Assembly: GCA_963965975.1 (NCBI GenBank)
Contig: OZ014411.1
Span: 7,627,501 to 7,691,500 of the forward strand
Reading direction: 5' to 3'
Source: Xestospongia bergquistia
Taxonomy: Eukaryota > Porifera > Demospongiae > Haplosclerida > Petrosiidae
Length of the DNA: 64,000 nt
Shown: in pieces, positions 3,701-50,172 of the stretch
How the letters are laid out: each line of letters starts with the position of its first letter
Numbering within the stretch: the stretch's first letter is position 1
Position numbers and translations under genes: made by a program
Notes under the pieces: generated by a model
What the model was told of the DNA's origin: nothing
Database searches by the model: none
What the model saw: only the letters and a program-made list of their open reading frames with translations

Positions 3701-6700
3701 TAACTGATCATAACTGCACATTTACTTGTGAACGTGGCTATTCTATAAAAGGATCCCCATTTCACATGTGCCTACCAAGTGGGACATGGTCTGGCATACT
3801 CCCATACTGTCAAATTCAACAATGTCCTCATGTTAATGTCACTGATAAAACATTGGTGCTATATCCATGTAATAATACCTACAATGGGAGCTGTAATGTA
3901 GCATGTCGTCACGGTTTTCAAGTTAGTGGAAAAGCTGGTATTGTCAAGTGGCGTCAAATTTGTGAGCATGTTGAGGATGGATCAGTTGCTTGGAAAAATA
4001 GTGAGAAATGTACAGGTCAGTGTGAAGGAACATGTAATAGCATAACTGTACTGGTCAATATTTTCATGAAGTATGATAGCAAGCAAAATAGATTATATAC
4101 CATTTGCATGGCTAATGACATCAATTAATAATTTTTGTAATATATATGACTGAGAAATATGACAATGAATAACCTTTTTAAATAGAGCGCAAAAAATGTG
4201 ATCCAAACCCTTGCTCTCCTGGAAAATGCTCAGTCAGCATAAAAGGAAACATAATATGTAATTGCAAGGGAAAATATCGACTAGGAAAGAATTGCCAGAC
4301 TGCCTATCTCGTATCAGCACCATTACCAGTGATAACAGTTGGTAGCAGTCATAATATACAAGTGTTAACAAATCCCTTGAAGACAGCAGATCTAATTATA
4401 ACGTCATCTACTATGAACATATCTCGCACCATTACACTTGACCCATATACAGTAAGCTTATCTTTTCCAATGAAATTATCTAGTGTAGGGCTCCATATAA
4501 TGAGTTTTCATATGCTTTCAAGTGAATTGTACATTAAGCCAGATGATGCCATTTTTGTGGTAATACCACGAGAAAATAAAAGGGGATCAACTAACTATTT
4601 CACAAAACATGGTTTAAAAAATGGTTATCTTGGAGTAGGTTGCTGCCAGAATGAGATATCTATATTAACAGAGCAATGTATTTCGAATATAACCTTATAT
4701 TCAACATGTCAATGGATGACAACTAACGATACTCGTATGACAAATGGTGTTGTCTTCATAAGTGTATCATCAATGTATCTACCGTTGTCCATTATTGGAT
4801 TGCAATTTAATCAAAGCGAAAGTTTTAGTCCATCTATATACATCAGATCAAGTACTCTGCCAGCTACCTGCAAGGCTTGTGAACAAGGTTCTGTTCCATG
4901 CTTAACATCGCAGTCATCATTTGCTTTCACTCCCAAAATAACAAAAGACATTTTAAATTATAATTCCCTTTTAACCACTTTCCTCAATAAAATCAGAAAA
5001 TTTACACCACCTTGGTTATCGATTACTGTTCGATCTGACAAAACATCAACTTATTCCAAGTTAGATTACTCCGCTTTTGTAGGAACAGCACATGAACTCA
5101 ACAAAGTTGTTGGTTGTGATCAGTTCAATTTTCCAAATTCTAAAAGTTTAATATATGCTATTAGAACAACATTAAGTTTGTTGTTCACTATCAACTCTTC
5201 TCATGTGTTTTTATTTCCAACTGATTCTGATCCATTTTGCATAGCAGTTGATATGTGTAGTCAAGAATCGACAACTCTTCATGTTACTCTACCGAGTGAA
5301 CTCCAACCACCAGCTCTAAAAGGAATAACTCCATTGAAAAAACTTTTGGACAATAATGGTCAACTCTTCTTTGAGAACATTTCTTTACAAGAAAATGGTA
5401 TTAGGATGAACTTTGACTCAACATTTTTTAATGGCTTCAGGTTTATCAAGCCAAACTTACCAAGATATGAGTTTAAGTTATACTGTACTTTGTCCAAATC
5501 ATTCAGAGGTGGTAAACTCATTGTTGGAATGGATTTTAATGGAGCTATTTTGCACAATTCTTCTATATCAATGGGAGAAGTGAGTGACATAGTTAGAAAA
5601 TAGCTATTAATACTTGATGTGTTATAATAATAGGTACCAGGTTTGTTGTTTGGTTCAGGAGAAGTCAATATTACAACATCTGTAAGCAATTTTACAATTG
5701 CATTTGATGAAAGTACGCCAGCTTTTTTCTCCTTCCCAGGTTAGCCAACATTGTATTGATAACTAAGAAATCGAAAATATCACATGTTTATTAAAAGTTA
5801 CCAAATTTTTATTTTTGAACAGGACTGTCTATAGATAAGCTGTCGCTTCTCACTCCTGGAGTATCCTTTAAGACTAACAAGAAAGTGAGTTTTAGATTGA
5901 TTTCATTCCCAGCAATTTCGATTATCACCAATAATGACACAAACTGCTACGTTGATTCCTTCTTAAGCCTAGATGAAAGCTTGAATGTAAACAATATTAC
6001 TATGACAAGTAGCTGCTTCAATGTATATGTGGGAAGTAGTTTACAATTGACATCGGGCTTTAATCATATTATAACTGTATTTGGACAAAGCACTTCAGAT
6101 TCAAAGTCATTTGGTATTTATTCTTACTTGAGTCAGTCACAAGCTCAAATTGGCAACTTCATTACTCTTCACTCTATGAGAGAAATACCAACACTTGAAT
6201 TAATGATTTACTCTACAAGCAATGCAGTGGAGGGTATAATTCACAATGCTACAATTTCTCTCTTTGGTTCAGCATTCCAAACTAATATGACAATTTTTGG
6301 TAATGATTTGACATTTGAAGGCGTATCAACAATTTTCGGTAATTTTGATGTATACATTGTTGGTAGCTTTTTACTTAATCAAAATCATTCTGATGCTACA
6401 TTGTCTGTAATGGGAGAATTTCTAAGTGAATTTAAGGCTTATGTAACAAACATTGTAAATGAACTTATAGAAGGAGAAGTGAAAGATGTATTAGTTCGTC
6501 GAAATATTTCATCAGAAGGTATTAGCAGTGCAATTAAATGGCGAGATGATCTAGATCAGCACCTTAAAACTCACTATAAAGAGATGATAGAGTCACAAGA
6601 GCAACTTGTACAGGCAAACCTGACTTATCAGTCATCAGAAATTGAACTTAACAAAATCATTGACAGAATTGACAATGTCATTGAGGGTATTCAAAATTAC

Positions 6701-19846: not shown

Positions 19847-20945
19847 ATGGCGTCTGAAAATCGTAGTGTTATCGTACCGCTTAACAGCAGTAACTACGCG
19901 ACATGGAAGATTCAATGTTGGATGGCCTTGATAAGAGATGCTGTGTGGAACATTGTAGATGGAACAGAAGTAGCACCTACTGGAAGTGCCGCAACAGCAG
20001 AAGCCCAATCGAAGTTCAAAGCAAGACAGGATCGAGCATTGGCGACAATTCTCCTTTCGATCGAACCGTCATTGTTATACTTACTTGGCGACCCTAAAGA
20101 TCCGACAGAAGTCTGGAAGAAACTAGAGGATCAGTTTCGTAAGAAGTCTTGGGCGAACAAGTTGACGCTAAGACGAAAACTCTATTTGCTGAAGCTTGGA
20201 GAGAAAGACTCTGTCCAGGAACACATTAAGAATATGACCAAGATCTTTGAGCAGCTGTCATTTATAGGAGACACTGTTACTGATAAAGATTGTGTGGTGT
20301 TTTTGCTGGCCAGTCTGCCAGACTCGTACTGATTGTTAGTAATGGCCCTTGAAGCAAATTCTGATGTACCTAAGATGGAAGTAGTCACAGAGAGATTGTT
20401 ACATGAAGAGCAGAAACAGAAAAGGGAGATAGAAACTCATAGTGACACCTTACTAATGACAAGATCAGACCCCAAACGTGGAAAAGGACCGAAATGTTTT
20501 CGTTGTAAAAGATTTGGTCACATTCAGAGAAATTGCCCCGACTTACGTTACCAAGAAGAGAGAGTTAAACCAGAGAAAAGATATACGAAACCTAAAGTGA
20601 CAAAGAGAAGAGATGAGCGGGTGCATGTTACGTCACAGACAGGGAGGTCTCGTAATCGTGACGATGAAGACAGTGACATTGGTCTAATAGTTACACACGT
20701 TTTATCAGTAGGAAAGTCATGTGACTCAATTGGTACCTGGGTCATTGATTGGGGAGCCACCTGCCACATTTGCTGTGATATCAATCAGTTTGTAACGATA
20801 AACTCCCTACCTGAGTCAGTGAATATCACACTTGGAGATGGTCATAAGTTAACAGCAACAAAACAAGGTGATGTTGTAATTTTTGTTGGGACCAAGAAGG
20901 GAAGAGAGAGGAGATTTGTGTACTTTTTGTCCCAGAGTTGTCCTT
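19847..20945 (+). pseudogene. Copia gag and protease, disrupted
   Basis: The frame opens with a Gag region (LNSSNYATWKIQCW; UBN2-like) and meets an in-frame TGA at 20330-20332, then continues in the same frame. A CCHC zinc knuckle (CFRCKRFGHIQRNC) and the start of an aspartic protease follow. The catalytic DSGA triad region reads DWGA, so the protease active-site serine is replaced. The frame is lost near 20945, where integrase continues in another frame. Confidence 0.85.
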
Positions 20946-21990
20946 TAATTTGTTTAGTGTACCAAAGGCGACTGAAAGAGAAGCCTCCATTATCTTTGAA
21001 GATACGAAATGTCGCATTTTTATTAACAAGACAGATCTCATCGCAGAAGGTACCAAGAAAGGAAAACTCTATCACCTGATGTACCGAGCAAGCACGTTAC
21101 ATACTTCAGAAGAAAGTATCAATACATCAGTGACTGAGGATATATGGCACCGACGTTATAAGCACCTAAATTCGAAATACTTGAAGCTATTAGTACGGAA
21201 AAGGCTAGTGATTGGTTTAAATTACGATTGTTTAAAGGATATGAAGCTTTGTGAATCCTGCGTTAAAGGAAAGCTTCACAGAAATACCTTCACTAGCAGT
21301 GAAAGATACACAAGGAAACCACTCGAGTTAGTCCATACTGATGTTTGTGGAAAATTGGAAGCGAGTTCACTGAGTGGTGGTCAGTACTTCCTCACGTTTA
21401 TTGATGATTATTCTCGTTATATTTGGATTTACATACTAAAACACAAGAGCGAAGTGTTCACTCGTTTCAAGGAGTGGAAAGCCATGGTTGAGAAATCTAC
21501 TGGTCACGATTTAATTTCCATTCGAAGTGATAATGGTGGTGAGTATTTATCATCAGAGTTTCAAAGTTACCTCAAAGTAGAAGGAATCAAACATGAAAGA
21601 ACTGTACCTAAAAATCCCGAGCAAAACGGTATAGCAGAGAGGTTGAATCGAACTCTCGTTGAGTCTGTTTGTTCTATTTGGCCGATGCAACATTACCCAA
21701 GGAGTTTTGGGCTGAAGCCCTATCAACCGCTACCTATCTACGAAACCGAAGTCCAACCAAGGCTCTAGACGGTCTGACACCATACGAAGTACTTAAAAGG
21801 AAAAAAACCCTGTGTTGATCATCTTAGAATTTTTGGATGTGTCGCTCATGCACACGTACCTAGTGATGAGAGGAGAAAGTAGGATCCTAAGTCTAAACGT
21901 TGTATTCTACTCGGCTATGGTACAGATGTTAAGGGGTACCGTCTATATGATGTTGAACGACGGAGAGTATTTTATAGCAGAGATGTAGTT
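20938..21990 (+). pseudogene. Copia integrase, frameshifted
   Basis: A GAG-pre-integrase zinc site (WHRRYKHLN with CESC) is followed by an rve core with HTDVCG, DDYSRY, SDNGGEY and EQNGIAE, which supply the expected acidic catalytic positions. The frame breaks near 21680, where the remainder runs on in other frames. An acidic linker is open at 22012-22215. Confidence 0.85.
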
Positions 21991-22011
21991 TTTGACGAAT
22001 CGAAGGTTGGA

Positions 22012-23850
22012 ATGAATAAAGAGAACAAGAAAGACATTTCTGAACACCAGGTAGAATTTTCAAGTGAATCTAACGATACCAGCAGATCAGATATTGATGA
22101 GTATGATACACCTCCTAACGAAGTACAGGAAGAAACGAATAATGAAGAATTAAATAATGAAGATAATGAAGATAATGCACCACAGATCACAAGATCTGAA
22201 CGAGAGAGAAGATAACCTGACTATTATGGAGTATGGGTAAACTCTGTAGAAGAAGTGCAAGAACCGAATACGTTTGAGGAAGCTATCACAAGTCCACATA
22301 AAGATAAATGGATAACTGCTATGCAAGAAGAGATGCACTCCTTAAGTGAAAATGAAGTATGGGACTTGGTAGAACCTCTTAATGACAAACACATTGTTGG
22401 AAGTAAATGGGTCTACAAGAAGAAAATTGGAGAGAATGGATTGATTGAACGATACAAGGCCAGATTAGTGGCACAAGGTTTCTCACAGAAATAAGGTCAG
22501 GACTACGAAGAGACCTTTAGTCCTCTTGTTCGATTTGAGTCGATTGTTCGATGTTCGATTTATCGCAATATCCGCTCAAGAGAAACTAAAAATACATCAA
22601 ATGGACATAACTACTGCACTTTTAAATGGAGAACTTGAGGAGGAGGTCTACATGAGACAACCGGAAGGTTTTGAATTGAAAGGTCAAGTGAATCTTGTGT
22701 GCAAATTGAAACGTAGTATTTATGGTTTACGTCAGTCTCCACGTTGTTGGAATGTTGCACTTGACAAGAAACTACAAGAAACGGGATTCAATCAAATACC
22801 TAGTGACCCTTGTGTATATGTGAGTTCAGAAGGAGAGAAAGTCTTTATTGCCATTTATGTAGATGATATTTTGTTAGTAGGAAAGAGTCTGAAGCAAATA
22901 GAGAAAGTTAAGAAGATGCTGGGTGTACATTTCAAGGTCAAGGATATGGGAGAGTTAACTTACTTCCTGGGAGTAAAAGTTATTCAACATGAAGATGGTT
23001 CAATATGGATTGGACAACCACTGTACACAGAAGAGCTACTCAAGAAATTTAATATGGATCAAGCCAAAGAAATGCCAACACCTGTCAATACTGGACAGAA
23101 GTTAGTTCAAGCTAATGAAGATTCTGAGTTGGTGGAAGTTAATCTTTACCAATCAGCAGTTGGTTGTCTACTCTATTTAGCTACACGTACTAGGCCAGAT
23201 ATTGCCTATGCCGTAGAAAACCAATCTAAATTCTGCACCAAACCCACCAAGGAACATTGGACAGCTGTTAAAAGAGTAATGAGATACCTTAAAGGTACCA
23301 TTGGATATGGACTCTTATACAGTAATGAATGTAATAGTGAATGTGTTGGTTACTCAGATGCCGACTGGGCAGGAGACTTAACAGATTATAAGTCAACATC
23401 AGGATATGTCTTTACATTTGGAGGTGCAGCTGTCAGTTGGAAAAGCAAAAAACAAGAATCAGTAGCTCTATCCACCACTAAAGCGGAGTACATGGCTCTA
23501 TCAATGGCAGCTCAAGAAGCAACCTGGATGAGAAGATTGTTATCTGATTTACGTTACACCCCCTCCCATCCAACAGTAATATATGAAAATAATCAATCTA
23601 CAATTAGCATGACTAAGAATCCGACTTTTCATAGAAGAACCAAGCACATAGTATTAAGTACCAATTTGTAAGGGAGCAAGTTAAGAACGAATTTATCAAG
23701 ATTATGTATTGCCCATCTGAAGAAATGATCGCTGATATATTTACCAAGGGACTAAGTAAAGAAAAATTTTGGAAGTTTCGTAGCATGATGGGAATTAAAA
23801 ACGAACTCATCGGTTATAAAGAAGAAAAGGACACATCAATCTGTAAGAAG
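22012..23850 (+). pseudogene. Copia reverse transcriptase and RNase H, frameshifted
   Basis: An acidic linker leads into the RT N-terminus (GSKWVYKKK, ARLVAQGFSQK). A stop at 22492-22494 and a frame change near 22526 follow. The rest keeps the catalytic YVDD box, the copia RNase H signature (SDADWAGD; SVALSTTKAEYMA) and a terminal HRRTKHI motif, after which the frame is lost near 23671. The catalytic boxes are retained, but the chain is broken in at least two places. Confidence 0.88.
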
Positions 23851-34000: not shown

Positions 34001-36060
34001 AATTTGGAAAATTTTTTGTCCAAATTTTTATGCTCTGTATAAAGTACGAAAATAGTTGCTAGGAATATTATTCAATTATGAAATAATTACAGTTACAGCA
34101 TACTAATCTCTCTACTGTTCATTTCCTTCTTGCATGATTGCACTTCTCCAACAACTGCCTGGAATGTAACTTTGTATATGATAACCCTGAATGTACCCGC
34201 TATGTCACCTCATGCCTCACAGACTGAGGTGTATACATACTACATTTTAATTATTTACTAAATAAAAAATCTCACAAATTTTTTTTACTATGTACAAAAG
34301 TACTTACATGAAAAAAATTATGAATTATTTGAGATGCTAAAATTCTTACTTTACAGTATATTTTTTTGCTATATATCTGCAGCAAGGCCAACCAAAGCTA
34401 CACATTGGAGAAAAGGATGATATTGATGGACTTACCACTTCTCCTTCCCAACATTTTGTTTTATTATCTCTTGGCCAGTTGGTAACAATATACACAATGA
34501 ATGACAGATGATTGTTAATCCAACTATTAGGAACCAGATAAAGATATTGCTATTCAGAGAATTAGTGTTATATTTAAACTAGTAGCTGCATTATGTGATG
34601 GTCAACACAGGAACATGCAAAATGTCCTCAGATGTCATGAACAAGCATCAGTAAGTCTGTCACTGCTATACATGCATCACAATAGATACACTCAGTAAAA
34701 TGTAAATATATATATAATTTTATATGCATAAAGATATCAAAGTGAACAAGATACAATTATTTTACAGCAAATTAATGTTGTTAGAGAAGTAACAATGATT
34801 GTACAGACTTTAGCAGAAAATTTCAGTTCAAGAACTGTACCTCCTATAACAAAAGGAATTCAAGTAAGTACTGAAATGGTCCAGTATAGGTTTTAATATT
34901 TTGCTTCATGAAGGCTCTTATAGAGGTGTGTGCTGGAAATTATGAAAACCAGGTCACAACACTAAATAATCAAGTCATCTACTTTGTCAATGATGTGCTC
35001 AAATTTAATGATAACTGTGATCAATGTGATGTGCTCGAAGTTAAGCATAACTGTGATCAATGTGGTGATGTAAGTCTAGTGGTTGAATGTAAAGTGCTGG
35101 TTAACTGTCATGGATGCTAAATGTGCCTGGAAGTTCTAAGTCTCAATATTATAATTGTTTTAGGTTATGTTTTATGTATATATATATATATATATATATA
35201 ATTATATATATATATATATACATGTATATAGAGAAATCTACTTTTCATTACATTGTTGTATGTGACTATAAGTGTATATACTTACATATACTCACATTGC
35301 TAAGTTTATTTATACATTGCTACCACATCTCAACCTCCAATCACCTAGTTTAGCACTTCTGTTTTCTTTTAAAGCATTATTTGTTATATATACCTATATT
35401 ACAAATTACAATGACATCAATAATTTTAATGTTATAGATTATCCGAATGAAATGTAAAGCTATTGAACTGTTAGAAGTGCTTCTTGAAGAAACAAGTGAA
35501 CAACATGAACAGATTTATGAAATGGTTTCCAGGGATCTTCATGAGACTCAACTTGACATAATAACAAAAAAGCTATATGAACATGTAAGACATAGTGTAA
35601 TACAATTAGTAACACATCATATATAATAATAATAATCATAGCTTTGACTAACTTAAACAATATATTTTTTATTTTTACTATAACACCTGGTAAGAGATAC
35701 TTCTTAGCTTTACTGTATTTTCAAATGACATTTCTACACTTGAGAAAATTATAGCCTAAGGTTTACAATAATAATGTTAATGATAGTTAGTATTTACTTC
35801 ATATAATAATTCTTATTGTAGTATTACAGTAAAGAGGACACTCAAAATGACAATGATTTTGTTGCCTTTTGCAAGCGTTCAATGTTTAGAGGTTTCCATA
35901 TTCTTAAGAAAATCAACAAGGATGAATATGGTATGTTTTATGATTATTTTGTGCATAAACAATATGTTTTATTAATGTTTATATATAATGACATTCTACC
36001 AGTTTATCATACAAAGAATATTGAAAGGGAAACACACAGCATTGAAATACGTTATGTGAG
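25014..36060 (+). CDS. IP3R/RyR-family channel, middle exons (MIR, RIH, RIH-associated)
   Basis: Exons: 25014-25098, 25162-25228, 25472-25582, 25690-25787, 25828-25905, 26031-26109, 26155-26186, 26741-26797, 26842-26913, 26981-27100, 27150-27332, 27385-27440, 27549-27624, 27792-27861, 27930-27964, 28034-28123, 28193-28301, 28347-28535, 28613-28741, about 28817-28973, 29145-29152, 29218-29288, 30247-30424, 30470-30617, 30714-30818, 30940-31127, 31246-31329, 31382-31501, 31552-31677, 31726-31859, 32132-32254, 32383-32500, 32604-32792, 32834-33074, 33184-33289, 33380-33457, 33510-33573, 33627-33820, 33866-33917, 33993-34043, 34383-34481, 34531-34650, 34768-34863, 34914-35069, 35438-35584, 35822-35930, 36003-36060. 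MIR strands (GGSVVRIHNTKFNRF; KYLTVKKNG; GSEVRIVHSDENHDHKYLS) and RIH helices follow the IP3R order; exon 34531 matches the RIH-associated block (ALCDGQHRNMQNVLRC). The basic RTTGR loop of the IP3 pocket is replaced by an unrelated Lys-rich loop. Exon 28193-28301 carries a frame-breaking duplication, and the last exon is cut by a transposon. Confidence 0.85.
28199..28266 (+). repeat. 34 bp exact tandem duplication inside a coding exon
   Basis: Copies at 28199-28232 and 28233-28266 are identical and begin TATGCTGAACAT. With one copy the exon (28193-28301) is 75 coding bases and in phase, reading AEHKKECDLLIAHLKLYSRL. With two copies the frame meets TGA after ECDLLIC. No alternative splice acceptor that would skip one copy is obvious. 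Confidence 0.9.
34992..35063 (+). repeat. In-frame 36 bp tandem duplication (12 residues)
   Basis: Units 34992-35027 and 35028-35063 encode DVLKFNDNCDQC and DVLEVKHNCDQC. The copies have diverged at several bases but keep the frame and both CDQC motifs, so this is an older, tolerated duplication in the RIH-associated region. Confidence 0.85.
35174..35222. repeat. (TA)n microsatellite in intron
   Basis: A TA run with one ATTATA interruption, between exons ending at 35069 and starting at 35438. Confidence 0.9.
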
Positions 36061-36520
36061 TATGGCATTCCAAACTGGACAAAATTATGTTGACAAAAAC
36101 ACCATTACCTAGACAACATCGCCATGCTCGTTGACAAAAACACCATTACCTAGACAACATCGCCATGCTCAAACAGACAAAAACACCATTACCTAGACAA
36201 CATCGCCATGCTCAAACAGTGCTTCATTCATGTCAGTTAACTAGTACTGTTGTTCACTGTCTGATCAATATACAACATCTATATGCTCAACTTGAACACA
36301 GTGCTATCGTCATTGTGTGATCGTGGTGGATCCACAGACAAGATCATCATGCTCAACAATACTATCATTCATCGTTCTCAACAGCAGACAAAATCGTCAT
36401 GCTCAAACAAAATCGTAATGGTCAAACGCCCCGCCCAACGGAACTGACGTTACCTGTCGTCATATGTTTTGTTAATAAGATTAATTATTATTAATTATTA
36501 AATTGCTAGCAATCTATTTA
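36061..36520 (+). repeat. Left terminal inverted repeat, about 460 bp
   Basis: Contains three tandem copies of a 41-43 bp unit (core GACAAAAACACCATTACCTA) followed by diverged relatives of the motif, then a GC-richer block (GCCCCGCCCAACGGAACTGA) and an AT-rich inner edge. It pairs with 42129-42631. Confidence 0.92.
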
Positions 36521-37381
36521 ATGCGTATTAACACATTGTTGTAATACTTCAGATAAAAGAGAATCTTGTTTAGTTGATAACTTTGATAGTGCCTAAGGGA
36601 GTAGCATGCTTTCTTTTTAAGTGAATTTACAATTGTTATGCCAACATGTAATCATGAGGTTTACTACTTTGATGACGACGAAGGCCTAAGCTCTGATCAT
36701 GAGATCTTGAGTCAGAAACAAATTTAGAAGTCATTTTTATTGTGCAATGTATAGCCAATAAAGACTACTAAAGGGTCATAAATAAATCTGAAAGGGGAAG
36801 GAAGAATTTGCTTTGGGAAATTTGGTGTGAAGATAATGAAAGAAGATTGGAATAATGATCAGATATCAGTGGACTAGAATGCTCAGATGATATGATAAAG
36901 CCAGTGATTAGTGTTATTAGAAGATAACTCTATAAGTCTAAGATGTTTTTGTCTTTGTGGATGGATTTCTCAAAAATGGTTTCCATTTAAAACAAATTTA
37001 GGCAGATACCATCTTTCATGACAATCATCTCTTGTGTACACAGAGCCCACCCAACTGTTTTACTGAATAAGAACCTACAGAAGCCGAAGGCGGACATCTA
37101 ATTCTATTTTGTAATTTCATATTCTATTTTGAAATTTTCCAAAAATATTCCAATTCCAATTCTTTTTCTTATCCTTTGATGGATTATTTAACAATTCAAA
37201 TTGAGCTCAATGAAGTGAAGTGAGCACAGTGAGTACACATGAAAACAAATCTATTATTTATAATATATAAAACAGTACTAAAGATTATTATAAACTATTT
37301 ACTTTACACAGATATTATATACCTCTAGTTTAAATATCAAACACTTCACTTATGTATAATAATTATAGAATAATGTAATAC

Positions 37382-37387
<6 letters not shown>

Positions 37388-37418
<31 letters not shown>

Positions 37419-37420
37419 TG
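37388..37420. repeat. (TA)n microsatellite in the transposon
   Basis: A TA run of about 33 bases in the interior of the element. Confidence 0.85.
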
Positions 37421-37675
37421 TTTAATTTGCATGGCTAATTTACCCATATAACCATATGGGTAAATCAATCAACACATATGTATATATATACATTTAAGTG
37501 TTAATTTGTTTCTATCTCTGTCAACTCAGTTGATCACTTCAATAACTGCATAGCATGTAATTACCAGACACAGTTCTAATTATCAGTAATGTGAACTAGT
37601 GTAAAAGTAAATTTAAACACATTATTCATTTAATTCAACATATTATACTATAACATTGTGTGATAATCCTTTAAT

Positions 37676-38119
37676 CTAATACTGTGCATATTCATAATCT
37701 GATATATCACTGGTGACACCTCTTATCAATTGCAAGAACACTTTTCTTCTACTATATGATGGACTGGTCTGCAGTTGAGGATCTGGTATAGCTTTTTTCT
37801 GAAAAACGATTAAGATCAAATGATAATCTACTCTAAATAATTACCAAACCTTTCTGTTAATATACACAGCCGTTCCTGATATCAATATTATTATAACAGT
37901 AGTTAGTAAAAACAGAATGATAAGTATACAACCAAGAGTTACTATAACTGTCAATAAAATAATAGTATTGTCCTCTGCTAATGGTTGAGTTGGAATTGAA
38001 TTTCCAACTTCTGTAAAAAAACTCACTCTTAACAGTTGTTTATGAGGAAGATTACCTGTACCTACTACTAGTGATAGGATCAGCACTACTAATAAAGGTT
38101 GCAGTATATGAAACAAGAT
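37676..38119 (-). CDS. FN3-end, TM helix and tyrosine tail fragment (receptor-like cargo)
   Basis: Three minus-strand exons join in phase: 38119-38056, 38027-37850 and 37798-37676. They read as the C-terminal strands of a fibronectin-III-like domain (LVSYTATFISS, RYRVSFFTEVGNS), a strongly hydrophobic TM segment, a juxtamembrane INRKKK and a short tail ending DYEYAQY before TAG. The intron between the first two exons is only 28 bases, which is unusually short and makes that join less certain. No start or upstream FN3 part was found, so this is the 3' end of a receptor gene carried within the transposon, or an older local gene remnant. Function is unknown. Confidence 0.55.
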
Positions 38120-38129
38120 CTATAACTGT

Positions 38130-40450
38130 TGAGAAAGTTGTTGTGATGATTATTATCAAATCAAGAAATGGTCAGTCAAAGGAAATGGAAAAGGAGATGA
38201 GGTCCTTACATTTGATGTCATCAAAAGAGGTAAAGAGACAGAAGGGGTAACAAAATGTGAGGAGAAAGATAATGATGATGACAAGATAGCAAAAAGCAAG
38301 AGATATGAAGGTACTGGAGAGGATGACAGACAATTGTTCTAAAAGATAAAACAGTTATATAATAATAATGATAAATTATTGACAACTACTGGTTGAATAT
38401 ATTAATTTGCATCATTACGGATCAATTCATGGTTCTCTGATCGTTTGAAATATTTAATACAGGACTACTACTGATAAATGACAGGAGAGAGATGATTTGG
38501 TCTAGATTATATATACACATGTTAATACAATAGTTTTTCTTTTTTGTAACATATACAGCATGCTAAAGATAATGAATTGTCATTTTGATTCCAAACAATA
38601 TTTTTTGCAGACAGACAGACAGACCAATTGCTTAACCCTCCTTGCAATGTGGGACAATAATTTTATAATTGTAGATTTTATTGATTGTAACTACTGTTTG
38701 TTTAAGAAATGTATATTATTCAAGAGATAAAGAGCTCATGTTGACTGTATCTAGCTAGTAATGTGATACTTAATTCTTTATCAGTAGAACAATAGGAGCC
38801 AATATATTAACATATATATATAAGTTTCATAGTAAAATTGTTAGACTTTGGCTAACAGCAACTACAACTAATATGAATTAATATACTGGTACTAATTCTA
38901 TACAGACATCATTGAAAAAGGTTTGCTTACTGAGTAAGATGACCATTGGATGCCAAAATGAGGAATGTGTAATTGTTACAGAATTGACAAAGGCTTAGTA
39001 CTTGCATAAACAGAATAAATGATTTTAAGCACTTTTAAACCACTTTAAAGTACTTTCATATATGTGTCTAAACTTGAAGTGTGTCAGTGTCTATGATTCA
39101 GTTGTCAATTATAGAATTATATATTGTAGATATAACAATGAAATCAGCTGGGAATACTTTGTTAAGAAGAGGTGTTCATTATCATTAACTGTTAAACACT
39201 TTGAATAACTTATGTTCATTACATGTAACAAACATTTATAACATATTTCACAGTTGAGTAGTAGTAAAATAAATATAAATATGTCACTGATACATTTTGC
39301 ATAGAAAATGCTTAAGTTATTTCTAAAGTACTTTCTCCCATATATCTGATTACAAGTATATATAGATTAATGAAATCAGTTGATAGTTGGCATATACTAT
39401 ATCTTGATAGCCAACAGTTCAGTTCAAATAAACAATCAAAAACATACTTCAAATTAATGGACAACGTATATACTGTTTTATATGATGGTTAAGCCATAAC
39501 TTCTGAACCATAACACCAATGTATAGGCATAAAAATCACTATACCTAACCATATAAATTTTTGTAAGGATTATAATTATTTGTTGGAGTAACTGTCAGTT
39601 TACTGATCCACCCCCTCTCTCTACAAAACTAACAATTATGTTTTTTTTTACTGAAAACATGTACAGTTACTACTCAGATCATATCATATTGACATAATAT
39701 AATGAGGTAGCTAATGAGTCATATATTATTACAATGAGTTAAAACAGACTTTTTATATCACTTAAAAAGATACCATATATCAATGATGATTAAAAGATGT
39801 TGACTAATAGCAAAAATGGTTTTATACTAACATAATTACCTGATCACTAAGATAAAGAAATAATAATATCATAAATAAATAATTAATTGTATTGTGAAAC
39901 CCAGACCTCCTGACAAAATGTGAAATGTCCAGTCAGCACATCCTAATTATAAAATGTAAAATCATTATGTAAATCCCTAAATAATTTTTTTAAGCAAGAA
40001 ATTATTTTGATCACTTTAATTTCTGCCTTTTTGTACAACACGAGTGTATGGTCCAAAATCTGACAATTTATTGATTATATCAGTCTGGTACACTACTTTT
40101 TCCTATTATTGATAATTATTGATAATAATTACCAAAATTGAAAAGTAAGATAAGTAGCTTAGGCAACAAAAACGCTTTGAACTAATCAGAGCTATGAATA
40201 GACCATTGTAGTAACTTAGTTTGTAAATAACAGGCACAATAATAGCTCAGGGCAGTGTAGAGCTAAAAAGAAAATCGAATAGACCACATGGGCTATTGTT
40301 TGAGGCTATACACTAAGTGATACTTTCAGTTGATGAACCATTACTGTCTGTCATTATCTGTTTGCACTACAACTACCAACATTTGGTTTAAAAAGTAATG
40401 TTGCTCTCTATATATACAACCACAACTAGGTTGATTATATTAACTATACA
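38130..40450. other. Transposon interior without recognised gene
   Basis: A charged plus-strand reading frame (about 38143-38343, ending GEDDRQLF) overlaps the upstream side of the receptor fragment, but it has no start and no known family. The rest is AT-rich with no coding signal recognised. Confidence 0.35.
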
Positions 40451-40453
40451 TAC

Positions 40454-41980
40454 CTCCATGGATAACCACCTTCCACCTGATGAGCTTGTGGTTTCCATCG
40501 ATATGCCTATAACAAATGTGTAATTATATGTAAACATTAATTTTATACAACACTTATGTCTTATAGGTGCAACATTTCCCACAGATGAACTGTCCAATAT
40601 GACAGTCTATTAGATACTACGTGGCTGTCTGTTACTGGGTATTTGAATGCATGATACATATTACCATATAATATATTTGGCTTGACTTGCCATAAAAACA
40701 TAGCAGATTCATCTGATATTACTCAGTTAGCACTCTAATGTTACACACAGGCACATTTAAGAGTCTAAGTTAACAAAAGCAGAAAAAAGTTATTTCAAGC
40801 CTAAAAATATCAAATCTTTGAGTAAGACTCACATATTAGTGAAATGCTATCAAGTATTTACCATCCATGATTGTGACAAAAAGTAATTTTTAAAAAAGTG
40901 GAGTAAACATCATAGCAGATTAAGCCACTGTTATGGATGTCATGTTCACAAACCTTGAGAATTGTAGCAACAGGCATATCAACAAACTATCAAATAAAGG
41001 GTATGTTCAGAAGTTTTTTGACTTTCATAGATGAAGTAAGGCCTGGAAAAACCAAATTGTTGGCAAAAATTCATTCCCTGAACGTAATATTTACATTGGT
41101 ATAGACTAATTTCAATTACCTTTAGAATAATATACATACTGTATTAGGATGTATGTGGAATTTTTTGGAAACAACCCAAGTTAGACATGAAAGTATCCTG
41201 TATTATGTAACATATTCCAAAAGACATTACCTTCACATCACAATATAAAAAATTGCTATAAGAACACTAATTGCTAACCACAGTACTGTAATAATGAAGT
41301 AAAGAATGCACAATATTTACCATAAAGCATTTGGTCCTGCAACAGAGTAGCGTCGACGGTGTATTCTAGCTGCTCGTCTTAAAAGACTGACTGACAGGAT
41401 CAACTCTTCACATGCTCTCAATAACTCTACTTCTTTGGATAATGAGTCCCTGTGAGAGTAAGGCCCCCCGAACATGTGACAATCCAGAATCCATTGTAAC
41501 CAGTTGTTAGTATACAAACAATTTTTATAACCAAATTCATCCATTCCAAACACTTCTATTATATCATGTACCAGTTGATGTCAATATTACCTGTAAAATG
41601 TTAAAGATTATGTCATCCAGTTCTTCATTAGAAATCTGTGTGAAGTTATTCCCTATTCCAAGACCAAACAGTTCTCTTCGTCTTCTTAAAGTTCTTTCAG
41701 ACACTCCAAGAATCATAGACATTTGCTGGAAATTGAATCCAAGCTCTAACAAAGATTCTAAATCTTCTTTATGATTATGGTATGATGGCTGTCCAGGTTG
41801 TCCTGTTCTTTGACAAGAAAGATGTTGGTTAGTAGGGAGGTTACTAGGATCAGGTTGTGTCCAAAGGGTCCATTCCCCATAATGGGAACACAACCTTTGA
41901 AATTCTCCTATTACATACTCAATATCTCTTATGACTTCTTGTGGAGTATGGTCACTTTCTAATACCCTCCCTAAAATCAC
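40454..41980 (-). pseudogene. Integrase-core (rve-type) transposase, broken
   Basis: The first exon (41980-41591) carries a helix-turn-helix region, LLELGFNFQQMSMILGVSER followed by TLRRRRELFGLG. After a GTAAT donor, a second exon (about 41566-41318) ends RRAARIHRRRYSVAGPNALW. A third (40506-40454) joins in phase to give the hallmark HIDGNHKLIRWKVVIHG, typical of integrase-core proteins that are repetitive in cnidarian, lancelet and fish genomes. The second exon contains frame changes and a TGA between GLIIQRSRVIESM and RVDPVS, and the catalytic C-terminal half was not found. This copy therefore cannot supply transposase. Confidence 0.8.
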
Positions 41981-42128
41981 TCGAAGGACACTTATACAGT
42001 CTCTATATATAAGTTCTCTGCCAAATTTAAGTCGTCGGTGTTATAGTGACGATGGAGTTGAGATGACAATCCCAATAGGTACTCCAGAAAAGAGTCTATA
42101 TCAAAGGTTGAACTTGTCATGTGTAAAA

Positions 42129-42631
42129 TAAATAGATTGCTAGCAATTTAATAATTAATAATAATTAATCTTATTAACAAAACATATGACGACAGGTAAC
42201 GTCAGTTCCGTTGGGCGGGGCGTTTGACCATTACGATTTTGTTTGAGCATGACGATTTTGTCTGCTGTTGAGAACGATGAATGATAGTATTGTTGAGCAT
42301 GATGATCTTGTCTGTGGATCCACCACGATCACACAATGACGATAACACTGTGTTCAAGTTGAGCATATAGATGTTGTATATTGATCAGACAGTGAACAAC
42401 AGTACTAGTTAACTGACATGAATGAAGCACTGTTTGAGCATGGCGATGTTGTCTAGGTAATGGTGTTTTTGTCTGTTTGAGCATGGCGATGTTGTCTAGG
42501 TAATGGTGTTTTTGTCTGTTTGAGCATGGCGATGTTGTCTAGGTAATGGTGTTTTTGTCAACGAGCATGGCGATGTTGTCTAGGTAATGGTGTTTTTGTC
42601 AACATAATTTTGTCCAGTTTGGAATGCCATA
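42129..42631 (-). repeat. Right terminal inverted repeat, about 503 bp
   Basis: Reverse complement of the left end, but with four tandem copies of the 41-43 bp unit instead of three. This explains the difference of about 43 bp in length. Otherwise near identical, suggesting a young insertion or recent gene conversion between the ends. Confidence 0.92.
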
Positions 42632-42637
42632 TGTGAG

Positions 42638-45600
42638 TCATGACAACCAAGAAAAGCAAGTTCTGACTTGTGTCTACTTTCCCTTTAAATATAATGTAAG
42701 TCTTCATAAAATATGGATAATATGCATTATCTCAATTACTTTACAATTGTTGGATTGTATTTTCATTAATATCTTGTGGGTTGAATAAAGGATGAACTAA
42801 TGGAGGATGAGAAACAAAAACTTCAAAATGAAATCAAGCGAGACTCTCCAGAAAACAAATTAAAAGATTTTCTTTTATGGACTGAGTCTAAACTAAAAAA
42901 CTACACACATACTGTAAGCACATTTTCTACATATTGTTTGTATGTATTATACATGTACTTGTCTGTCGTACCAATATATTAGAAAAAATTGGAGAAAAAT
43001 CCAATCACAAGAGTGTTGCTTTTTGGATCGTAAGTATAAATTTGATGATTTACATTTTGTCATGTACAATTATTACTAAATGCAGGACACTACGTCACTG
43101 GTTTCTCGTATTCTGGACAATATTGTTAAATCTATTTATTCTTGCTGAGCTTAAAGTCCCAAAAGAGTAAGTCAATGTAGATCAGTGAAGGTAACTGATC
43201 AAGCTAAATTTATATTTCTACTGAAGACAATGATAATTTTTAAAATCAATTTACATAATTTTCTGTTAGTGCTTTATTAATAATTATTATATAATATTTA
43301 ATCTGGCAGGCCTCAAGATTCTTGGTTTCTTGTCTTTTTACCACAATTGTTGACTAATACATCTCAAAGGTAATTTAGTTTATCAATTCAGTAATGATTT
43401 ATTAGATGGATGACTAAATCATGAATACTTGTTTACTAATGAGAATTATTATAAGTGCTTTCAATTACTTGAAAACATAATTATTATATATCAGTCTTGA
43501 GTTCATGCATATGTACTTAGTGTTTCTTTCATAAATACTCAAAGTACTTTATGATATTCAGAAAAGAGGAGTTTTAATGCTTAATCCATTGAGTGATTGG
43601 TTGCATCCATGGTGGTTGTGCTTGAGTACTGTGGGGAATTTTTGTGCCTAAGTGTTTATGACAAAGAAATAAATGTTTAAGTACAACTGCTTTTCCTTAT
43701 GTTTAAAGGTCTTGTTCTTTGCACATATTTTCATATGAAAATTTTTATTTAATTCTTACATTTTAATCAAACATTTTACAAGTTACTGTCACGTTGCATA
43801 TTTGTAATTCTAACATAATGTTTTTAGATATAAGTTTGGTCACATATATCGATAAGGAAAGTTTGTCTAAGAGTCTTTAAACCTCTTCCTTCACCCCACA
43901 TTTACCACATTGTATAATTGCATTTAAATGAAAGACACAGTGTACATATATTTTATATTGCCTATATATAGAACTGACAACATTACATTTATAATACATC
44001 CTGAAGTCAGTGAATGGTATAAGTATTTGCACTATATATTGGGAGGTGTTCATACGTTCCTAACTGTCTGGATGATGTGTGAATACTTTGTTAAAGAGTG
44101 CCCTAACTTCAAGTTTCAAATTCCATGGATTCAGAAAAAACTGTAAGGGTGAAATAGTTTAAACTACATTTAACATTATTGCTGAAAAAATTTTTAAAAT
44201 TAAGTATTAGATAACTATTATACAATTCAAATAGAACACAAATTTGCATAATAATAGTAGAAATAAGTAATAAAATTAATGAAAAAATTATAAAATTTTG
44301 ATCATAACAAGTGACATCTTTTAATATGATAATAAAGTTTTGTGAATGCTAATATGAATATGTAATGTAAAATAGAAATGAAACAAATACAATATTAATA
44401 TAATATCACTGTAATTGTCCAGGTACAATTTGAAAAAATATATTTTAAGAACATTTCCAATCGAAAATAATAAGAAGAATGAAAGGTGAACACAATTTAA
44501 TTACTTATTTTGCTTACATTTAAGAAATTGATCATGCATATGCCTGTCTTTATTGTCATTTATGTAGTGCAATCTGTGAGTCTTCAAGATTATTTAAAAT
44601 ACTTAAAAAATGCAGGAGCAAATTTTGTTCTTGCTTTGAATTGCCAGAAGAGAGTCAATGCTTTGACATATACTTTTTCAGCATCTATCCAATGTATCGA
44701 GTATTATTTACTCTATGTTCTCTGTTGGGTCTGTCATTATCCGGATACTTTTATTCCTTCTGTTTGCCTTATATTTTTATTAAAATTAATGTGATTCAAC
44801 ATGTTATCAAGGCAGTTGGTGGAAGAGGTAAGACTTTAACAATTTAAGCAGAATTTTGTTTGAAGCTGTGTCATTAAGACGTCATTGGATTGAATGTTAT
44901 CAGTAATGCCAATAGAGATATTGATAATACTGTATTTTAAAGATGCATATCATAAATTGATACTGGCCATTTATTTTAGGAAGATATTCTGTACAAACCT
45001 TTAGTAGTTGCTGTGATAATACTTAGAAAAAAATTTATAGACATATGAGTTAATTGTCTAATTTTTTTTTTTTAGTTGAACAGTTAATATATGTTGGACT
45101 ACTAATTCTAAGTATTTTGTTAATATATGCTGTCATTTCATTTGCCTTTATGTCCCAATTTTTTAACCCTGATGATAATCTATATTGTGATACACTCTGG
45201 GAATGCTATGTCACTGTCATAAGAGAGGGATTACTGGGCACTTTTGGAGCTGTAAGTTAGTAAAATAAATTTTACATTTTATTTTTCTTTGCAGTCTATT
45301 CCAGTGCGCTATACAGGACAAGATGGTCCCAACTTTCATATTTATAGCTGGCGATCTTTCATTGATTTGTCATTCTTTGTTATTGTTACCGTAATTGGGA
45401 TGAATGTCATTGTTGCTATTTTAGTTGATAGATTCTCTGAACTCAGAAATGAAAATGTAAGGCGGTCTTAAATTTAAATTTAATTTCTACGTGTACCCAA
45501 CCAATTTAGGAAACAGCTCTTAAAGACCAAAAGGATTACTGTTTTATTTGTGGAATTAGAAGTGATTTATTTGAGAAAAGTGAAGACAAGGTACATGCAA

Positions 45601-47918: not shown

Positions 47919-50172
47919 ATGTCTTCTAATATAAGTAGTGCTGCTAGTGGACTTCTTAAACATGTAAGTAGTATATCATTGATAGGATTTAATATGACTG
48001 TGTATACACATATAGGCTACTTTGAGTTTTAATTGTTGTCTAAAGTGTAATCAACCTTATTGTGATTCTCGTATGCTCTCTTGTTGTCACTCCTTCTGTA
48101 TCCAATGTATCCAGTCTCTCATGACTGAAAGTAGTGGAACTAATTCCATCATATGTTCCTATTGTCACATGACCACTCCAGTACCTAAAGGAGGAGTCAC
48201 CCGTCTTCCTCGTAACCTTCGTCTCATTAACAAACAGGGTGACATCCTTAACAAGATCAACTCAAACCCTCCTCCACCTTGTGACTCATGTAATGAAGAT
48301 GCTTCAGTATTCTACTGTACTGAATGTACAGATCTCCTTTGTAAGCAATGTTGGGATGCTCACAAAAAGCTTCGTTCAACTCGTACACACTCATCTTTTA
48401 CTCTTGAAGAAGCTCATGCTATGTCTCTAGACAAATTAACTAAACTAATTCCATCTTTTACTCATACCTGTCATGATCATACTGACCAACAACTAAAGTA
48501 CTATTGCCAACAATGTATTATCCCAGTGTGCATTCAATGTACCATTATCAACCATAAGGACCATCCTGTTACTGAAGTAAGTAAACAAGTTGACATTGAT
48601 AAGGAAATAATTCACAAGAACATACAAGGTATCCAAGTAGCTCAACATCAGCTTGAAAAAGTTTTGATATCAGGAAAAGACGTAAAGGAAAAGATCAAAA
48701 CTCGAAAGAGTGAGATAGACATAATCATACATCAAACATTTGCTACTTTTCGACAACTTCTACATCAATGTGAGGATTCTCTGTTAGCTCAGAATAGTGA
48801 GGTAGCTAATGCTAAAGAGGTTTGTCTCTCTCTTCAAATAGAAAGGATCCAACATCTCTTGGAGACAATGACTTATTGTCATAGTCTTGCAACTAGTGCT
48901 GTAGCTGAGTACAATGATGTTGAGTTACTATCAGTGGCTGACACACTACAAATCAGAGCAAGCCAACTACAAAAAGAGTTCTCTGAGACCCCTCTTGAAG
49001 TATGTGAGTCACCAACTATATCAGTAGATATAAATACAGATGAACTAGCTACAAAGATATCAAATGTAAGCATTACATTTAATGAGATATCTCCTAAATA
49101 TACAACAGTAGAGATACCTTCAGATATTTTAATAAGTAGAAAATCAACAATACAAGTAATTTCACGAGATGATAAAGGGAAGGAATTATCTAAAGGAGGT
49201 GCAGTCGTGAGTGGTAGGCTTGTACCAGTTGAAAAGAAAGGGATACCAATTGAAGCTAAGACCACAGATTTTAAAGATGGTACTTACCTTCTCTCCTTGA
49301 CACCACAGCAGTTAGGTGATCATAAACTCTTCCTTACTGTCAAAGGTCAATCTATCCAAGATAGCCCCTTCAATGTTTCTGTAGTTACTTCTCGTGATTA
49401 CACAACCCTCAAGAATCCAGTTCAAATTATTACTGGGATAAAGTATCCAAAATACATGGCCTTTTCTGAAAATGGTGACATGTTTGTCACTAGTGGTGAA
49501 AATTGTATATACGTATATGACAGCAGTGGAAGACAAAAGACTACTATTGGTTCAAAGAAAACTGGTCCACTACAGTTAGATAATGTCATGGGAATAGCTA
49601 TTAGTGGAGACATAATATATGTGGCAGAACATGAATCAAATAGGATTAATATGTTAACTTTAGAAGGAGAGTTTTTGGGTACTTTTGGTAGTGAAGGGTC
49701 TTGTGAAGAGCAGGTCTTGAGTCCAAGAGGTATGTGTATTGGTCCTGATTGTAAAATATATGTTGCTGGTGTTAATCATATCCGGGTATTTAATTGTGAT
49801 GGCACTTTCTCTCATAACATTAAACATGATTCATCGGAGATGTCTTTTGTTCGTGATATTTCCTTTGATTGCTCTGGTTTTCTTCATGTGACAATTTCAA
49901 TCTTTCAAACAGTTCTTGTCTTCACTCCTGAAGGTCATTTTAGATATCATTATGGTCACTTTTATCTTGATGGACCATATGGTATAGCTATTGATTCAGC
50001 TGATAATACACTTGTCATGAACCATAGGGGAAGCTCTCTTTCTATTTTTAATCAATATGGCTTTCATATCAAGTCAATAAAAGGCTTCAATAATCCAATA
50101 GGAATAGCTGTGGCTCCCAATGGATCAGTGTGGATAGCTGATCAGTACAACAATAGATTAGTTAAATACTGA
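47919..50172 (+). CDS. TRIM-NHL protein (RING, two B-boxes, coiled coil, filamin, NHL)
   Basis: Two exons, 47919-47963 and 48016-50172, give 733 residues. The upstream start MSSNISSAASGLLKH is chosen because it splices in phase to the long frame, whose own first ATG is internal. Domains: RING (CLKC ... CCHSFCIQC ... CSYC, about 20-70), B-box 1 (CDSC ... CTEC ... CKQCWDAH), B-box 2 (CHDHTD ... CQQC ... CIQC ... H), coiled coil (about 205-330), filamin repeat (about 385-485) and NHL repeats (about 490-733). Members of this family are E3 ubiquitin ligases or RNA-binding regulators, with the NHL propeller binding the target. All RING zinc ligands are visible, so ligase activity is plausible. The domain order is that of the TRIM2/TRIM3/TRIM71 class; a one-to-one orthologue cannot be named. 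Confidence 0.92.

Follow-up and report, generated by a model that had tools for sequence, protein, structure and literature searches.

A 6,571 bp DNA transposon, occupying positions 36061-42631, has recently inserted into and split one coding exon of an IP3R/RyR-like channel gene of the sponge Xestospongia bergquistia, duplicating the 6 bp target TGTGAG, and we give an even chance to the view that best explains the locus as a whole, namely that this insertion brought with it a predicted new intron and did not simply cut the gene in two. The window analysed is a stretch of 64,000 bp (positions 7,627,501 to 7,691,500 of contig OZ014411.1, assembly GCA_963965975.1; C1:7627501-7691500 in our genome searches, which covered 146.5 Mb in 21 contigs labelled C1, C2 and so on). 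A sequence-only reading of the window had proposed such a transposon with its TGTGAG duplication, its position inside a coding exon, and an IP3R/RyR-like host gene interrupted upstream of the transmembrane region, and all of these proposals are borne out by the evidence below. That reading also spoke of a clean gene-breaking insertion, of which the insertion stands and the breaking of the gene is one of two likely outcomes, since an in-frame GT..AG pair would keep the reading frame and add five residues; this comes near to the frame-keeping removal from transcripts that the reading itself had named as telling against it, and we therefore take it as partly supported.

The insertion is judged almost certainly real from its target-site duplication (TSD), its near-identical arms, a sister copy with a TSD of its own and the continuity of paralogous genes at the site. 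The two copies of TGTGAG were read at the junctions, at 36055-36060 on the left and 42632-42637 on the right, and between them the element starts with TATGGCATTCC and ends with GGAATGCCATA, its outermost bases being TATGG..CCATA. Comparison of the inverted arms (460 nt on the left, 36061-36520, and 503 nt on the right, 42129-42631) shows them to be identical at 459 of 460 positions, the sole substitution lying at 36304, with one additional subterminal unit of the 43-nt type in the right arm (four copies against three in the left). A 35-nt terminal pattern, allowing up to 3 mismatches, finds 23 ends in the genome and none when reversed, which places the element family above chance, and a 24-nt terminal pattern finds 25 ends, again with none for the reversed control. 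The sister copy (C1:9289915-9297090) is 99.2% identical to the window element across 5,584 bp, is flanked by the separate 6-bp TSD CCTTTT, and has ~0.7 kb that is absent from the window copy. When six facing pairs of ends were compared, three had shared flanks (of 6, 6 and 7 bp) and three were unmatched.

The interrupted exon (36003-42695, forward strand) now lies in two halves, 36003-36060 and 42638-42695; once the element and a single copy of the TSD are subtracted it is 116 nt long, and its joined flanks translate without a stop to VYHTKNIERETHSIEIRYVSHDNQEKQVLTCVYFPFKYN. Twelve paralogous loci, picked from the genome matches to the pore exon described below, were fetched and compared at the insertion site, and in 11 of them a single protein match spans it (for example SIEVNYVTKDNNEVLTRVYFPFDY and SIEVNYELNYENQVLSRVYFPFK, where the joined window reads SIEIRYVSHDNQEKQVLTCVYFPFKY); the twelfth, L044, has no match in this stretch. 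An intron that was already present at the site was considered and rejected, since exon sequence follows directly after the TSD and 11 of the 12 loci are continuous. Six aligned paralogs are shorter by two or three residues within a few positions of the junction, and the loop at the junction is thus one that varies in length.

The host gene runs on the forward strand from about 25027 to 46462, an approximate extent taken from a gene-finder model (setting -8/-3) with an incomplete exon set, and from Pfam and PDB matches. Joined across the site, its exon model matches Pfam Ion_trans (2.5e-9) and RIH_assoc (2.7e-9), and the pore exons downstream match PDB chains of RyR (4e-16) and IP3R (2e-14). 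It shares with the IP3 and ryanodine receptors the pore region, the RIH-associated domain and a CFICG motif that follows the final transmembrane segment. It differs from those receptors as a divergent member of a large local expansion, and the N-terminal ligand-binding/MIR domains had zero Pfam matches in the incomplete model; MIR-like peptides can be seen by eye near 25.2-25.8 kb. A 79-residue joined query from the insertion site, searched alone against the PDB, gave no IP3R and one spurious match, because this stretch is too divergent for a single-sequence search; a profile built from the window sequence together with six paralogs found ITPR2 chains only, at 2084-2206 and in order, with weak support (E 0.029; 0.17 for the insertion stretch itself), and in this seven-row alignment SIEIRY falls on the QIEIVR stretch of ITPR2. 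Comparison with the paralog at C1:7.85 Mb over 347 codons gave dN 0.15 and dS 1.02, which indicates long-term purifying selection on the gene and is uninformative about the short time since the insertion.

The first pore exon has at least 33 matching places in the genome, the window gene included (16 on C2, 6 on C1, 5 on C6, 4 on C15, and 1 each on C5 and C7), many of them in arrays such as C2:10.14-10.53 Mb and C2:11.66-12.0 Mb, with C6:2.56-2.68 Mb and C15:3.93-3.97 Mb also among the places matched. By these matches there is a large expansion of genes that resemble calcium-release channels, part of which are perhaps pseudogenes. No report of an IP3R/RyR expansion in sponges was found among the titles listed in literature searches, and the one expansion met with there was in Paramecium (PMC3213138, in the part of that source available to us).

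At the left junction the duplicated target and the first T of the element together make a candidate donor that reads TAT|GTGAGT (GTGAGT at 36056-36061, forward strand, five TSD bases plus one element base). It scores 7.16 bits, above 40% of the 42 introns modelled in the host gene, and is therefore ordinary for this gene; the reference introns had been picked by a gene finder that uses such scores, a choice that, to whatever extent it matters, should make the tested sites rank too low. The right inverted repeat carries a candidate acceptor, located 14 nt inside the element's end, TTTTGTCCAG|TTTGG (the candidate 3' splice site ...ATTTTGTCCAG at 42598-42617, forward strand), with the exon resuming at 42618. 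If the spliceosome removed 36056-42617 as a new intron of 6,562 nt, the frame IEIRY-FGMPY-VSHDNQEKQVLTC (IEIRY-FGMPY-VSHDN) would stay open, and the mRNA would gain 15 nt, or five residues (FGMPY), within the length-variable loop upstream of the transmembrane region. There are 21 AGs in 42300-42660, and only 42618 and 42657 would keep the frame without a stop through the rest of the exon. Such in-frame mRNA would be expected to occur mixed with prematurely ended transcripts, and whether at least some in-frame splicing of the element takes place is evenly balanced.

When the interior of the element was masked and generic splice models were used, four of five gene-finder settings predicted a junction from 36055 to 42618. 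How often an insertion would bring such a donor was estimated by simulating insertions at 4,695 coding positions, of which 2,130 lie in the open frame at 48-50 kb (below) and 2,565 in modelled upstream exons. An in-frame, TSD-borne donor at least as strong arose in 9 of these (8 in the open frame and 1 in the upstream exons), or in 76 once the cut-off was relaxed to 3.24 bits, and the count was 43 when donors of equal strength were allowed up to 30 nt upstream. The arrangement is uncommon, being found in about 0.2-8% of simulated insertions depending on the strictness applied.

A number of observations weigh against in-frame removal of the element. The upper figure of 8% (378 of the 4,695) comes from allowing weak donors up to 30 nt upstream, and the coincidence test was designed after the case had been seen. 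The acceptor is weak (3.44 bits, above just 17% of the 42 modelled introns), and since its score is reached by 62 of the 361 AGs in the element (itself included) and that of the donor is matched by 10 of the 376 GTs, there are many competing splice sites. AATAAA occurs ten times on the sense strand of the element, first at 36757. Among the masked runs, the model from the fourth setting ran through the preceding intron, and that from the fifth used the same donor and then skipped from 36055 to 42791. Unmasked, the gene finder recovered both half exons only at the laxest of three settings and with false exons between them; the first unmasked run, which over-predicted (193 exons), had kept both half exons in this way. 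Finally, most other copies of the family lie outside recognisable exons.

Several of these points are what would be expected of a null or truncated allele, which the sequence-only reading had put forward and to which we assign slightly less than an even chance. Transcripts would then enter the element, where translation would stop after VSMAFQTGQNYVDKNTIT or an early AATAAA would end the message, and a channel pore would not be made; the read-through product, IEIRY-VSMAFQTGQNYVDKNTIT-stop, ends ahead of the pore, so a truncated protein is possible. Membership of the gene in a large family could let such an allele persist, as could heterozygosity or a recent origin of the allele. The early stop together with the ten AATAAA sites, the weak acceptor and the numerous competing splice sites all favour it, as do the other pore-exon places in the genome, at least 32 in number, by virtue of which loss of the host gene could be tolerated, and the near identity of the arms, which implies that selection has had little time to act. 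Rescue by skipping of the whole exon was rejected from the coordinates, as loss of 116 nt would shift the frame, and this too speaks for a null allele. What stands against it is the existence of an in-frame splice pair that is uncommon among simulated insertions. Rescue by leaky or full splicing and a tolerated null allele are, on balance, about equally likely. The fuller claim, that a full-size IS3EU-type transposon turned into a functioning spliceosomal intron in one step, with the donor from the target duplication and the acceptor from the terminal repeat, and that the channel still works although five residues have been added ahead of its pore, is one that we advance tentatively, with appreciably less than even confidence.

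The potential acceptor lies within the conserved terminal repeat of the family ends found (with one to three base differences in a few of them), so that a family member landing next to an appropriate target might be capable of splicing. This, and the 81-bp short relative at C5:2847338-2847418 (below), would suit a true introner family, with inverted repeats that evolved to make introns upon insertion and the window case as one of many; we consider this very improbable. The family is low in copy number (23 to 25 ends), and among the 21 ends outside the window element only the one at C7:3131974 adjoins recognisable coding sequence, in an apparently rearranged locus, for which reasons we do not file the element as an introner. 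No second clean exon insertion was found among these 21 ends in a coarse screen that may have missed exons (23 ends read for open frames, three flank frames scanned with Pfam), and genome-wide intron making by the family is rejected for now. It is more improbable still, to the point of being nearly negligible, that an assembly or haplotype artefact placed the element here and that no real chromosome carries it at this site: long inverted repeats are in general difficult to assemble, but the 6-bp TSD is perfect at the junctions and the copy differs from its sister, which holds ~0.7 kb more.

The window element fits the IS3EU/GingerRoot type, where it is placed by its TA..TA termini, its 6-bp TSD and the integrase-type DDE core (Pfam rva_4) of longer relatives. 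IS3EU elements have TA..TA ends and usually a 6-bp TSD, and are inseparable from GingerRoot in the paper concerned (PMC10045372, in the part available). Several other copies have extra kilobases that start near window position 40051 and are absent from the window element; in a C10 copy, whose two ends lie 14.9 kb apart with an unmatched TSD, this extra part encodes the integrase core (rva_4, E 3e-62), and the IS3-like D-39-D-34-E spacing is seen in this longer relative only. The window copy keeps only the upstream helix-turn-helix frame without the core, and is therefore non-autonomous; its transposase would be supplied in trans. The frame that is kept, a relic of the first part of the transposase region, is an open frame of 158 aa at 41564-42040 on the reverse strand, with a Pfam match to Xre-like-HTH (1.4e-5) that at 25.7 bits is slightly below the Pfam cut-off of 25.8. 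The transposase core found no match in the PDB, and a Pfam scan of the other open frames in family copies gave sub-threshold names or nothing. Apart from its missing core, the window copy differs from IS3EU/GingerRoot in its arms, which measure 460-503 nt and contain 43-nt subterminal repeats, and in a passenger fragment (37660-38119, reverse strand) that codes for a transmembrane segment and for a tail whose last residues are ISDYEYAQY. This fragment is present in the window copy and in seven others (L054, L056, L057, L058, L059, L061 and L064), the tail reading ISEYEYAQY in one copy and ending AQH in another; outside the transposon family it has a single genome match, at C2:1735050 (51%).

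Two smaller loci of the family were also seen. The miniature relative at C5:2847338-2847418 (L025), 81 bp long, is nearly just two terminal repeats, with CAACATG on both sides. At C7:3131906-3131974 (L063 3907-3975) a 69-nt family end adjoins a class C receptor-like (7tm_3) exon, whose Pfam match beside C7:3131974 (2.8e-5) is under its cut-off, and a fn3-like stretch lies on the opposite side; this locus was perhaps rearranged at the element. Elsewhere in the window, adjoining forward-strand open frames at 20000-23850 resemble, by eye, a frame-interrupted Copia-type retrotransposon polyprotein, and a single-exon open frame of 718 codons at 48016-50169 (forward strand) looks TRIM-NHL-like by eye; the latter served as the coding training sequence.

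The origin of new introns in animals is an open question, and here one young insertion, its arms still nearly identical, can be set against an empty site deduced from paralogs, with a single specific junction predicted at 36055-42618. Should the prediction be true, a large DNA transposon would be able to start out as an animal intron; should splicing fail, what stands here is an ordinary knock-out allele within a family of redundant channels. No description of an IS3EU element acting as an intron was found in the listed titles and abstract openings of literature on introners, intron gain and IS3EU splicing; IS3EU is reportedly named in an aphid study on gene-inactivating insertions (PMC9783078). 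In maize, Ds elements in exons are said to be removed fully or partly as introns (work by Dennis in 1988, Wessler in 1991 and Giroux in 1994). Ds is a hAT-type DNA transposon of a plant and its removal is backed there by RNA, whereas the window case is known from sequence alone; the two are alike in that an exonic DNA transposon is, or here would be, removed as an intron. Introners derived from DNA transposons, as described in the part of PMC9860276 available to us, include those of Symbiodinium, which take the donor from the TSD and the acceptor from the element, and one of Aureococcus that adds 4 residues; the families have median lengths of 30-654 nt, with 5 or more copies serving as introns, and the survey records introners in only two animal groups. 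The window case differs from these as a single 6.6-kb insertion, where many similar introns across genes were not found and the candidate intron has been read solely from genomic DNA, and it resembles them in that its predicted sites would take the donor from the TSD and the acceptor, a weak one, from the element itself, with the addition of only a few codons.

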